This document shows, piece after piece, positions 8,496-12,295 of a stretch of 64,000 bases of DNA; positions within the stretch are counted from its first letter, which is position 1; each line of letters starts with the position of its first letter. Under the pieces are notes generated by a model. That model ran no database searches. It was not told the origin of the DNA and saw only the letters and a list, made by a program, of their open reading frames with translations. Source of the DNA: Pseudomonadota bacterium (lineage in GTDB: Bacteria > Pseudomonadota > Gammaproteobacteria > Arenicellales > UBA868); assembly GCA_016845525.1 (NCBI GenBank), contig JAERSQ010000156.1:1-64000 (forward strand), given 5' to 3'. Made by a program: the position numbers and the translations under genes.

Positions 8496-8948
8496 TTAAA
8501 GCGCAAGCGCGTAGACGAGAGCGTCTTCTGGGTGGGGCAGACCGTAGTACTTTTTCCTTATACTGAGGAATTCGAATCCCGCTTTTTCGTATATTGCCCG
8601 AGCCCGGAGATTGCTCGGCCGAACCTCGAGAAAGACGCGTTCGGCCCCGGCCTGTCTGGCTACCGTCACTCCTTTCTCCAGAAGCTGCCTACCAAAGCCC
8701 CGTCTTTGCTGGTCCGGCGCGACAGCAATATTCAACAGATGGGCTTCGCCTGGTCCGAGTGACACAATCACATATCCAGCGATCTCACCGAGACGAAAAA
8801 CCCAGCACTCGTAGTGGGCTTTGAGGCAGTCCCGAAATATCCCCACGCTCCAGGGTGCAGGCGACACCTGTGCTTCCAGACCGGAAACCACTTCAACGTC
8901 ACCGGGCTCCATTCGGACGATCTGAGGCGCATCCTGGACCGCACGCAT
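8496..8948 (-). CDS. rimI: Ribosomal-protein-alanine N-acetyltransferase RimI-like (GNAT family)
   Basis: GNAT acetyltransferase. RimI acetylates the N-terminal alanine of S18, whose gene lies in this window. The acetyl-CoA loop is visible as IAVAPDQQRRGFGRQLL, followed by VRPSNLRARAIYEKAGFE and KKYYGLPHPEDALVYAL, typical of RimI. I place the start at the ATG at 8946-8948 (150 residues, near the usual 148). It lies 8 bases from the stop of the glycosylase gene; a longer in-frame form would overlap that gene by about 40 bases. The glycosylase-rimI pair is common in proteobacteria. Confidence 0.88.
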   Translation of the reverse strand: MRAVQDAPQIVRMEPGDVEVVSGLEAQVSPAPWSVGIFRDCLKAHYECWVFRLGEIAGYVIVSLGPGEAHLLNIAVAPDQQRRGFGRQLLEKGVTVARQAGAERVFLEVRPSNLRARAIYEKAGFEFLSIRKKYYGLPHPEDALVYALAL

Positions 8949-8956
8949 GAGGCTCT

Positions 8957-9643
8957 CTAGGCCAAAAGCGATTGGGCCAGCACCAGGTCTTCCCAAGTCT
9001 TGCTTTTCGCGGCCGGTGAGCGGAGCAGGTAGGCCGGGTGGTAGGTCACCACCAGCGGCAACTGATTGAGTCTGTACTGATGCGCCTTTCCCCGAAGCTG
9101 GCTCAAGCTCTCAGCGGAGTTGAGCAGCGCCTGCGCCGCGAAACGACCCATGGCCACAATGATCTGCGGTTGAATGAGATCGATTTGCGCATGAAGGAAA
9201 GGACTGCACTCCTGTACCTCGATCCCGAAGGGGTCGCGATTGTTGGGAGGTCGACACTTCAGCACATTCGCGATATAGACGCTTTCCCGGGACAGGCCGA
9301 TGCCGAAGAGCATGGCGCTCAGCAAGGCTCCTGCTCTGCCCACGAACGGCACACCCTGCTTGTCTTCTTCTGCCCCGGGCGCTTCTCCCACGAAGAACCA
9401 ACGCGCTCCGGGTGATCCCGAACCGAATACCACCTCGCCGCGTGTCCGATGGAGTTCGCAGCGCTCGCAACGACGTGCTTGCTCAGCAAGCGAAAGAAGC
9501 CCTGGGTTCTCGTCTCCGCCTCCGACGTGTGTTCCAGACGCAAGAGAATCCGGCTCCGGTCCGCTGCGGCCACCACCGCCAGAGCCAAAACGCCATCGAA
9601 CCAGGCCCATTTCCCGCAGATAAGGCGCCTGACGATCCATCAT
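8957..9643 (-). CDS. Uracil-DNA glycosylase, family 4 (iron-sulfur type)
   Basis: Removes uracil from DNA. Motif GEAPGAEEDKQGVPFVGRAG (residues 87-106) and motif YHPAYLLRSP (201-210) define family 4. Cysteines 59, 62, 130 and 146 match the expected iron-sulfur ligands, with C-x2-C and then C-x15-C spacing. The first 45 residues are a Gly- and Ser-rich extension without recognisable fold; in some relatives this region is annotated as polymerase-related. Two adjacent ATGs begin the frame. It starts 6 bases after the leuA stop and runs in the same direction, so it may be cotranscribed with leuA. Confidence 0.93.
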   Translation of the reverse strand: MMDRQAPYLREMGLVRWRFGSGGGGRSGPEPDSLASGTHVGGGDENPGLLSLAEQARRCERCELHRTRGEVVFGSGSPGARWFFVGEAPGAEEDKQGVPFVGRAGALLSAMLFGIGLSRESVYIANVLKCRPPNNRDPFGIEVQECSPFLHAQIDLIQPQIIVAMGRFAAQALLNSAESLSQLRGKAHQYRLNQLPLVVTYHPAYLLRSPAAKSKTWEDLVLAQSLLA

Positions 9644-9649
9644 GCGGAT

Positions 9650-11197
9650 CTAGATGGTCTCACCACTTTGAGGATTGAAACGCTGCGGGCTAGTCTGAAG
9701 TTTGTTTACCCCGTTTATGTATGCCTTAACGGAAGCGACGACAATGTCGGTGTCAGCGCCCTGCCCGTTCACGACACGGCCATCCTCCTGCAGACGGACG
9801 CTCACCTCTCCTTGAGAGTCAGAGCCGGCCGTTATCGCATTGACAGAGTACAACATCAAATTTCGGTTGCCCGGAACGACTTCCTCCACCGCCTTGAACG
9901 CCGCGTCGACCAGTCCGTCCCCCTCGGCTCGGCTCGATCGTGCCTCACCTTCAACTTCAAGAGAAAGTTCCGCAATCGGAATCTCTCCAGTCTCGGAGAT
10001 CGTTTTGAGCCCCACAAATCGGATGGTCTCGTGGTCTTCCTGGGCCGCCCCCTCTCCGGCCAGCACCTGCAGGTCATCATCAAAGATCTCGTGCTTTTTA
10101 TCAGCGAGATCCTTGAAGCGACCAAATGCGGCATTGAGTTCCGCCTCGCTTGCGAACTCGATACCCAGCGCCGACATGCGCTCACGAAACGCCGTTCTCC
10201 CTGAGTGCTTTCCGAGTACGATCTGGTTTGCCGACCAACCCACATCCTCAGCACGCATAATCTCGTAGGTATCCCTTTGCTTTAGCACACCATCCTGATG
10301 AATACCGGCCTCATGGGCGAACGCATTCGCGCCGACGATGGCTTTATTGGGCTGGACAGGAAAGCCCGTCACGCTGGAAACCATCCTGCTGGCGGGGAGA
10401 ATCTGGGTGGCGTCAATCGCCGTATCACAGGAAAAGACATCCTGGCGGGTACGAACCGCCATAACGACTTCTTCCAGAGAAGCGTTCCCCGCCCGCTCCC
10501 CAAGGCCATTGATCGTGCATTCGACCTGGCGTGCTCCCGCTTGCACAGCGGCCAGCGAGTTGGCGACCGCCACGCCGAGGTCATTGTGACAGTGGACCGA
10601 GAAGACGGCTTTATCCGAATTCGGGATACGTTCCATCAGGCGACTGAACATGTCACCAAATTGGTCCGGCATGGTGTAGCCGACGGTGTCTGGGATATTT
10701 ACCGTCCGCGCACCGGCTTCGATTACCGCCTCGAAGATTCGGCAGAGAAAGTCCTCATCGGAGCGCCCCGCGTCCTCGGCCGAGAATTCAACATCGTCCA
10801 CAGCGTCTCTGGCCTGGCGAACTGCCTGCACCGCTTTTTCGAGCACATCCTCGGGCGACATCCGAAGTTTGGCCTTCATGTGGATCGGCGACGTCGCAAT
10901 AAACGTATGAATGCGCGGCGCATTGGCCTCCTTCACGGCATCAGCGGCTTTGTCGACGTCACCGGGGTTTGCCCTTGCCAATCCGCAGATGCGACTCTCG
11001 CGAATCTCTTTAGCGACCAACTTGACTGCTTGGGAGTCGCCCTCACTCGCTGCCGGAAAGCCTGCTTCAATGATATCTACCTTGAGTTTTTCCAACTGCC
11101 TTGCAATCCGAATCTTCTCCGCTGCCGTCATTGACGCGCCTGGGCTCTGTTCCCCGTCGCGCAAAGTGGTGTCGAAAATATATAGCCGGTCGTTCAT
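9650..11197 (-). CDS. leuA: 2-isopropylmalate synthase
   Basis: First committed step of leucine synthesis: condenses acetyl-CoA with 2-ketoisovalerate. The 515 residues start with the DRE-TIM metallolyase signature [16 protein letters not shown]. The metal ligands are in the [13 protein letters not shown] segment, and the C-terminal LeuA allosteric domain (about 390-515) binds leucine for feedback inhibition. The ATG has a GGAG ribosome site. Upstream is a strong sigma-70 promoter (11411-11439) and a leucine-rich leader ORF (11291-11404), which suggests attenuation. It lies downstream of the ilvIHC-psd-pssA unit, a common gammaproteobacterial arrangement. Confidence 0.97.
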
Positions 11198-11247
11198 GCT
11201 TGTTCTCCGCGAATCAAGACTTGTGAAATTACCTTACCTTCCCTTTC

Positions 11248-11290
11248 AGGAGGGCAAAAAAATAGGTTCGGTGTATTAGGGGGGTGAAGT
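11248..11290 (-). promoter_or_regulatory. leuA leader region between leader stop and leuA
   Basis: In RNA sense, the stretch after the leader stop is rich in C and nearly free of G, and ends in a run of seven U (11256-11262). It is followed by CCCUCCU (about 11248-11254), which could pair with purine-rich sequence nearer leuA. I do not find a GC-rich hairpin directly before the U run, so a classical intrinsic attenuator is not demonstrated. A Rho-dependent or translational mechanism would also fit. Confidence 0.3.
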
Positions 11291-11404
11291 TTATAGCGCC
11301 GGCAGGCGCAGCAGGCCTAGCAGGCTGCAAGGCAGCCCGGCCAGCGGGTGTCCGGCGAGGCTGGAGCCGGAGCGAAGGTCAAAAAGGGATCGAATCGACA
11401 TCAT
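11291..11404 (-). CDS. Putative leucine-rich leader peptide of leuA
   Basis: A 37-codon frame that starts ATGATG and ends TAA, about 95 bases before leuA. Eleven of the 37 residues are leucine, and 8 of the last 17, including CTG CTA at codons 28-29 and CTG CTG at 31-32. A perfect 6-bp hairpin (GGCTGC/GCAGCC, 11323-11337) lies within these codons. Leader peptides rich in the regulated amino acid control leu operons by attenuation in proteobacteria. The predicted transcription start falls on the first base of the first ATG, so the peptide would be translated from a leaderless mRNA; no ribosome site is visible. Chance leucine richness in GC-rich DNA is the main alternative. Confidence 0.55.
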   Translation of the reverse strand: MMSIRSLFDLRSGSSLAGHPLAGLPCSLLGLLRLPAL

Positions 11405-11410
11405 CGTCAG

Positions 11411-11439
11411 AGTATAGCGCTGGTCGGAGTGCCTGGCAA
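11411..11439 (-). promoter_or_regulatory. Sigma-70 promoter of leuA
   Basis: On the minus strand, TTGCCA (11434-11439) and TATACT (11411-11416) are exactly 17 bases apart. The two boxes match consensus at 5 of 6 positions each. The predicted start is near 11404-11405, at the first codon of the leader ORF. Confidence 0.65.
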
Positions 11440-11461: not shown

Positions 11462-12295
11462 CTAGTCTGAGGGGCCTGCCGCAGACTCATTAGGCTTTTG
11501 GGTCGAATCTGCGTCGTCCGCCGCATCTGCCTCGTCCGGACCCTGAAACACACTTTGCCCATCCTTCCGATTAAGCGCCCAACTCACCGCGCCAGACGCG
11601 GCATAGACGAAAAAAATCGCGAGGAGAACTGCCGGAGGATCGAAGGAGATTAATACGAAGACCAGCACAAGGACGAGCACCGCCACAAACGGGACTCGAT
11701 GCTTCAGATCCAGATCTTTGAAGCTGCGATATGGCATCGCACTGACCATGGCGAAAGCGAGCAGCCCCATCAGGATGAACCCGGCCACGGTGAAGGACGT
11801 GCCTGTGAGCGCATAACTCTCCGCAGTCCATACCGCCGCTGCCAGCAGCACTGCGGCGGCAGGACACGGCAATCCTTGAAAATAGCGCTTGCTGGGAACC
11901 TCCTGCGTGTTGAACCGGGCCAAACGCAGTGCGGTCGTTGCGACATAAGTGAAGGCGACGAGCCAACCCGCCTTTCCCAGCGATTGGAGGCCCCACTCGA
12001 AAAGGATCAAAGCCGGTGCCAAGCCAAACGCCACCAGATCAACGAGTGAATCGTATTCTTTGCCAAAGTCACTTGCGGTATTGGTCATGCGGGCGACGCG
12101 CCCATCGAGCATGTCGAGCACAGCCGCCACGATGACAGCTATTGCCGCATTGCCGAAGTTTCCAACCGTCGACTGGATAATCGCATAGAACGCAGCGAAC
12201 AGACTGGCCGTTGTAAAAAGATTAGGCAGGATGTAGATGCCTTTGGGGCGCTTGTCGCGCTGGTCCAATGCGGTGACCTTGTTCAGCTTGGACAT
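11462..12295 (-). CDS. pssA: CDP-diacylglycerol-serine O-phosphatidyltransferase
   Basis: Inner-membrane enzyme that makes phosphatidylserine from CDP-diacylglycerol and serine. The CDP-alcohol phosphotransferase signature is complete: DGRVAR, then G and two spaced Asp residues (DFGKEYDSLVD). Several hydrophobic helices follow, and the last 35 residues are acidic and polar. The 277-residue protein belongs to the integral-membrane type II family, unlike the peripheral enteric PssA. It starts one base after the psd stop, so product and next enzyme are encoded together. Confidence 0.95.
   Translation of the reverse strand: MSKLNKVTALDQRDKRPKGIYILPNLFTTASLFAAFYAIIQSTVGNFGNAAIAVIVAAVLDMLDGRVARMTNTASDFGKEYDSLVDLVAFGLAPALILFEWGLQSLGKAGWLVAFTYVATTALRLARFNTQEVPSKRYFQGLPCPAAAVLLAAAVWTAESYALTGTSFTVAGFILMGLLAFAMVSAMPYRSFKDLDLKHRVPFVAVLVLVLVFVLISFDPPAVLLAIFFVYAASGAVSWALNRKDGQSVFQGPDEADAADDADSTQKPNESAAGPSD

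Follow-up and report, generated by a model that had tools for sequence, protein, structure and literature searches.

The leuA gene of a gammaproteobacterium of the order Arenicellales is preceded by a short leucine-rich leader ORF with an RNA hairpin at its end and a C-rich stretch beyond it, and this layout recurs ahead of leuA at most of the gamma- and betaproteobacterial loci that we sampled. We read the leader as a leucine attenuator: a ribosome held up at the leucine codons would prevent Rho-dependent termination, a reading to which we give slightly better than an even chance. Its parts carry different weights: that the leader responds to leucine is highly probable, Rho as its effector is an even call, and the parking of the ribosome on the leucine codons is inferred. 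The analysis adds an unannotated small ORF and an RNA element upstream of leuA in these groups.

The window analysed here is the whole stretch of 64,000 nucleotides (contig JAERSQ010000156.1, positions 1 to 64,000), in which pssA, the leader promoter, the leader ORF and leuA follow one another in that order (Table 1). leuA is the first committed gene of leucine synthesis. As the first-pass annotation had stated, a frame of 37 codons with 11 leucines is present ahead of leuA, here on the minus strand, and its final 17 codons account for eight of these leucines; six of the 11 leucine codons are CTG, two CTT, two CTA and one CTC. Measured against a background of 9.3% leucine in seven neighbouring genes, the binomial probability of this excess is 4e-4 for the whole frame (11/37) and 6e-5 for its end (8/17). 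The leader is exactly 37 codons long in the window and in its six closest relatives (L004-L009), and their peptides diverge strongly before the end. Two genes on the same strand lie directly 3' of leuA (8496-9643); judged from their translations they encode a uracil-DNA glycosylase-like protein and a RimI-like acetyltransferase, and they may be co-transcribed with leuA and share its leucine control.

Table 1. Features around the leuA leader in the window.
Feature	Position	Strand	Remarks
pssA	12295..11462	minus	upstream neighbour of the leader promoter
-35 hexamer TTGCCA	11434..11439	minus	similar TTTGCC...TATACT upstream in same-genus relatives
-10 hexamer TATACT	11411..11416	minus	17-nt spacer to the -35 hexamer
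Predicted transcription start, A of first ATG	11404	minus	seventh base past the -10 hexamer; conserved spacing
Leader ORF (leuL)	11404..11291	minus	37 codons, MMSIRSLFDLRSGSSLAGHPLAGLPCSLLGLLRLPAL, then stop
Leu-rich 3' part of leader ORF, control codons	11294..11344	minus	8 Leu in 17 codons
P1 hairpin GCGCC-TGCC-GGCGC	11296..11309	minus	begins at the G of CTG in Leu-Leu-Arg; the stop codon lies shortly 3' of it
C-rich, G-poor, unstructured linker (rut-like)	11255..11290	minus	includes U7 at 11262-11256
P2 hairpin CCCT-CCTGAA-AGGG	11241..11254	minus	at about the same place in relatives, with differing sequence; not followed by a U-tract
leuA Shine-Dalgarno GGAG	11205..11208	minus	GGAGAAC invariant among close relatives
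leuA	9650..11197	minus	type I 2-isopropylmalate synthase, 515 aa

The sigma-70 promoter and the predicted start on the first ATG that had been proposed for this leader agree with the sequence. The promoter, TTGCCA-17-TATACT, agrees with the consensus at 10 of 12 bases and is the sole such site in 411 bp on both strands, where 0.1 would be expected. Because its -10 box ends 6 nt ahead of the leader ATG, the predicted transcription start falls on the A of that codon. In a survey of 103 in-frame ATGs from 78 nonredundant loci, good -10 boxes (five of six bases or better) stood 6, 7 and 8 nt 5' of the ATG in 19, 14 and 6 cases (39 in total), and the other spacings between 0 and 59 nt had mostly 0-4 cases each (about one), with a minor rise at 39-41. 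Since the spacing peaks so sharply at 6-8 nt, leaderless translation of the leader, with its start predicted, is very probably conserved. Three relatives (L021, L023 and L025) are non-leaderless, with a GTG start about 26 nt past the -10 box, a possible Shine-Dalgarno and P1 retained, and leaderless initiation therefore seems to be the rule among relatives rather than a requirement. Leaderless translation could have a purpose here, as the sensing ribosome would load at once.

The search for LeuA covered 61 genomes from the same genus, family and order as well as GTDB contigs, and the upstream regions were read in gene orientation. A detector was applied that asked for a Leu-rich ORF end, a hairpin whose first base lies in a CTG codon, and a nearby stop. 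The resulting sample of 108 leuA loci combines the 80 best-matching public loci with the relatives and is an uneven survey of gamma- and betaproteobacteria; its record titles include Acidiferrobacterales, 'Muproteobacteria', Ectothiorhodospira, Methylococcales and Methylophaga, and among betaproteobacteria Aromatoleum, Pseudothauera and Sulfuricella. As controls we took 1704 windows of 500 nt, mostly coding, from both strands of the neighbouring sequence of the same loci. The leader layout before leuA exceeds chance: leader and P1 were detected at 82 of the 108 leuA loci versus 6 of the 1704 control windows, and at a score of at least 5.5 the detector returned 72 leuA loci and no control window. 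Conservation of the leucine codons and of a paired hairpin in related genomes, the check suggested with the earlier annotation, was thus found. Among the 26 loci that the detector left without a leader, one lies on a cut contig, and three, which carry a TTG variant, were added by hand; within the 108, the leader is truly absent from L027 and L028 (same order), from L030 (same family) and from several other gammaproteobacterial loci.

The hairpin that had been noticed across the leucine codons of the window (P1, at 11309-11296) is the key element of the leader and covaries in relatives. In its general form, the 5' arm runs from the G of the final CUG codon in the leucine tract and is often lengthened by a U:A or C:G pair, the loop has 3-5 nt in nearly all loci, and the stop codon lies within the loop or at most about 14 nt 3' of it. 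The arms differ by clade, with GCGCC/GGCGC in 30 loci, GCCC/GGGC in 22, GCGC/GCGC and GCC/GGC in 6 each, and the rarer GCGCT/AGCGC and GCCGC/GCGGC in 3 and 2. When 31 sequences of the 5-4-5 type were aligned, 98.4% of the cells were paired and both partners had changed in three of the six pairs; 0-1 of 500 shuffles did equally well, and slid versions were 17-53% paired. As for the coding side, at 65 of 77 nonredundant loci the codon preceding the last leucine also encodes leucine, and CTG, CTA, TTG, TTA, CTC and CTT are all used there. Leucine makes up 44% of the leader frame versus 5% and 10% when the other two frames are read, figures that the detector's own requirement helps. Because the arms covary and leucine is kept through synonymous codons, both the P1 RNA and the leucine codons are under constraint. 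In L023 and L025, P1 shows a C-G to U-A change together with a U-G intermediate. The whole leader, taken without a ribosome, folds slightly better than shuffles (z -1.45).

Beyond P1, the RNA has an unusual composition. Over the 50 nt after the hairpin, G falls to 7-18% and C lies at 25-39%, and the balance is regained further downstream. At 53 of 77 loci the first 35 nt contain at least two C for every G, a bias shared by 8.6% of control windows, and the linker folding energy is -2.0 kcal/mol against -5.6 kcal/mol in control windows. The C/G ratio over 50 nt exceeds the 95th percentile of local windows at 51 of 77 loci, the window's own value being 5.3. The C-rich, G-poor stretch and the U7 run to which attention had been drawn are thus both present, but only the stretch is conserved; the run (11262-11256) is peculiar to the window's species and is not conserved in its close relatives, and we rejected it as part of a terminator. 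Unstructured RNA that is rich in C and poor in G is the typical signature of a Rho loading site. The linker may accordingly be called rut-like, a composition typical of Rho sites and not proof of one. Separately, 17 of the 77 loci, all from other clades, carry a second and different element 4-15 nt past P1, a stem of 4-5 bp capping GGCG with CGC(C) 3-10 nt further on, which is possibly a pseudoknot; no pseudoknot was seen in the close relatives of the window. Covariation in the stem of this second element is strong (20 cells with changes in both partners, a level reached by none of 500 shuffles), and the element can be seen, for example, at L037:1400-1422, with equivalents in L040, L041, L043, L044, L055, L059, L062, L065, L078, L089, L090, L106 and L109.

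Textbook attenuation depends on an intrinsic terminator and on a pair of hairpins that compete. Applied to this leader, P1 would be the 1:2 stem and P2 the terminator, and a stalled ribosome would let the 3' arm of P1 pair downstream. The control codons and the stop do lie inside P1, as in the 1:2 stem of trp and leu leaders (PMC2659441, Shewanella leuA), and folding around P2 is more stable than in shuffles (mean z -1.37). However, no U-tract follows P2, no intrinsic terminator was found in the leader of the window, and terminator-like sites occur at just 7 of 77 loci, all of them weak and consisting of a few U-rich bases close to P1 itself in methanotroph-type loci. Moreover, the complementarity of the 3' arm of P1 to downstream sequence does not rise above that of shuffles (mean z 0.04), and the RF00512 covariance model has no match in the window and scores over its cut-off in 0 of 41 relatives, with 1 of 14 control genomes over it. 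We therefore regard classical attenuation as unlikely. The first annotation had also seen no classical terminator and had suggested leucine attenuation by a non-standard mechanism; as a classical terminator is absent across relatives, a non-standard mechanism is a fair conclusion, and a leucine response is highly probable. The role of P2 is unaccounted for by Rho-dependent attenuation.

The position of the leader ribosome might instead act on translation, by exposing or hiding the leuA Shine-Dalgarno in the way proposed for the actinobacterial LEU element. In an alignment of seven close relatives, leader codons and the leuA ribosome site can form 4 bp (CCGC with GCGG), and these are kept with G-U changes. 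The predicted accessibility of the Shine-Dalgarno, however, is unchanged when P1 is opened (0.413 versus 0.410), and pairing of the leucine codons with downstream sequence, the Shine-Dalgarno included, stays at chance (mean z -0.26, with p < 0.05 at 5% of loci), and we consider such control improbable. It could also be argued that a Leu-Leu-Arg or Leu-Pro end stalls the ribosome as a nascent peptide, in a TnaC-like manner, so that starved leucine codons would play no part. Proline precedes the stop in 28 of 77 peptides and Arg-Arg in 15 of 77, and Pro-stop is a known slow context for translation; yet conservation is lacking over the N-terminal two thirds of the peptide, the C-termini are clade-specific (LLRR, LLP, LLRFAR, LLRLPAL) and the feature held in common is the leucine codons, which leaves peptide arrest with a small probability. 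Finally, a DNA operator, in which the palindrome TGCGCC-N4-GGCGCA would bind a repressor and the overlapping ORF would be incidental, is hardly credible and was rejected: the palindrome is near-invariant inside some clades, but P1 covaries between them (GCCC/GGGC, GCCGC/GCGGC), always keeps one register with synonymously varying leucine codons, and is accompanied by a conserved start codon, stop codon and leaderless spacing.

Rho control is what remains, because the alternative pairing of P1 is at chance and access to the Shine-Dalgarno is unchanged. The rho gene is present in this genome. In Rho-dependent attenuation as we propose it, transcription would begin on the AUG, and a ribosome would load once the 5' end emerges from RNA polymerase. 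When Leu-tRNA is ample, this ribosome would pass the leucine-rich 3' end of the ORF, terminate at the stop in or beside P1 and depart, upon which P1 would close, the C-rich linker would be free, and Rho could load and end transcription ahead of leuA. When Leu-tRNA is scarce, the ribosome would park on the last leucine codons, holding P1 open and shielding the start of the linker; with the linker start shielded, Rho would fail and leuA would be transcribed. Geometry is the weakest step of this scheme, as a ribosome on the last leucine codon would cover P1 but only a few bases at the start of the linker. Timing may play a part at this point, or the freed G-rich 3' arms may pair loosely with the C-rich linker. 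Going further, it is conceivable, though we would put it somewhat below an even chance, that these leaders represent a widespread attenuator class without alternative hairpins, in which P1 would report the parked ribosome, alone deciding Rho loading; this broader reading also includes the leaderless AUG start and an element either retained before, or acquired by, a non-orthologous leuA.

Several known leaders share parts of this design. In the tnaC and mgtL leaders, the position of the ribosome on the leader ORF decides Rho loading just downstream, the signal being free tryptophan with nascent TnaC in the former and Mg2+/proline in the latter. The proposed logic is the same; the signal here would be starvation for Leu-tRNA, and the role of Rho is putative. 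Similarly, the trpL leader ORF in an amino-acid attenuator of Sinorhizobium meliloti is leaderless, and it differs from the present leader in its amino acid, its bacterial group and its classical terminator. The enterobacterial and Shewanella leu attenuator (RF00512 Leu_leader; PMC2659441) also places a leader with leucine codons before leuA, under presumed control by charged Leu-tRNA. In contrast to that system, which has a terminator and an antiterminator, neither was found here, the ORF is leaderless and RF00512 is unmatched. In Campylobacter jejuni, LeuL is an ORF of 28 aa with five C-terminal leucine codons before leuABCD, and its RNA ends soon after the stop codon (PMC3847290). The other members of that family were predicted from location and a ribosome binding site, and hence are not leaderless, and a stop-codon hairpin is not among the features given in the part of that report cited here (PMC3847290).

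The closest known case is the actinobacterial LEU element, a leucine-rich leader peptide before leuA with no typical Rho-independent terminator (PMC1262725, Seliverstov 2005), since LeuL1 of S. lividans, which precedes leuA, has a leaderless transcript and likewise no typical terminator (PMC8079986). The published structure of the LEU element comprises a pseudoknot and a base stem that pairs the leucine codons with the leuA Shine-Dalgarno (PMC1262725), whereas that pairing is not above chance in our loci. At four actinobacterial loci that we inspected by eye, the bases after the leucine codons seem complementary to sequence about 20 nt downstream, forming a long stem, and a tight hairpin at the last leucine codon, unlike P1 here, is missing from these four. 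Terminator-less leucine leaders have thus been reported in Actinobacteria, where their mechanism is unsettled. In the proteobacterial leuA leaders described here, some of them in cultured species such as Aromatoleum buckelii (L111) and Pseudothauera nasutitermitis (L071), only the leaderless start, the terminal leucine codons, the stop-codon hairpin and the rut-like linker are conserved, and a minimal switch between ribosome and Rho becomes directly testable with them. Scans of the window and of 12 relatives against Rfam gave no family at the leader, an NCBIfam scan of three leader peptides gave no match, and we found no description of the proteobacterial element in the literature searched, which included few subscription journals and preprints, so that an earlier account is possible. 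The single traits, namely a leucine leader, a leaderless leader and a leuA leader lacking a terminator, have all been described before, and the combination found here is a variant.

A covariance model of P1 gave 41 matches at E < 1e-3 in the 61 genomes, 38 of them just upstream of a leuA; 34 of these precede a type I gene and four a type II gene (TIGR00970). The four type II genes (G038, G047, G052 and G057, from one family of the order) all score over the TIGR00970 cut-off, and in the three of these genomes that possess a type I copy as well, that copy has no leader (L027, L028 and L130). Because a leader also stands ahead of type II leuA, which is non-orthologous, the leader follows leucine-pathway function rather than the descent of one gene. 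Leader and P1 lie ahead of the type II gene at L113, L114, L115 and L116, again from one family of the order, and at L114 and L116 the ATG stands 6-7 nt past a TA-rich, -10-like hexamer. The three matches away from leuA are G001:C177:15130-15155, G036:C126:8377-8402 and G015:C13:50098-50123, the first of which is not a Leu-rich leader. Class-wide and phylum-wide searches with the model, confined to the GCGCC type under strict filters and so no measure of true spread, gave few additional sites, and 4 of 15 fetched loci were at a type I leuA; a degenerate DNA pattern run over 369 genomes proved too loose to use. Among named records read by eye, the type II leuA genes of Acinetobacter baumannii (L161) and Burkholderia arboris (L160) are preceded by unannotated Leu-rich leader ORFs, MKTNYLFAQPTQARHHLELLMLRLARV and MQAAQSLFSLRLLARFSGLGLRPRAFHLLLS respectively, each with a hairpin at its last leucine codons.
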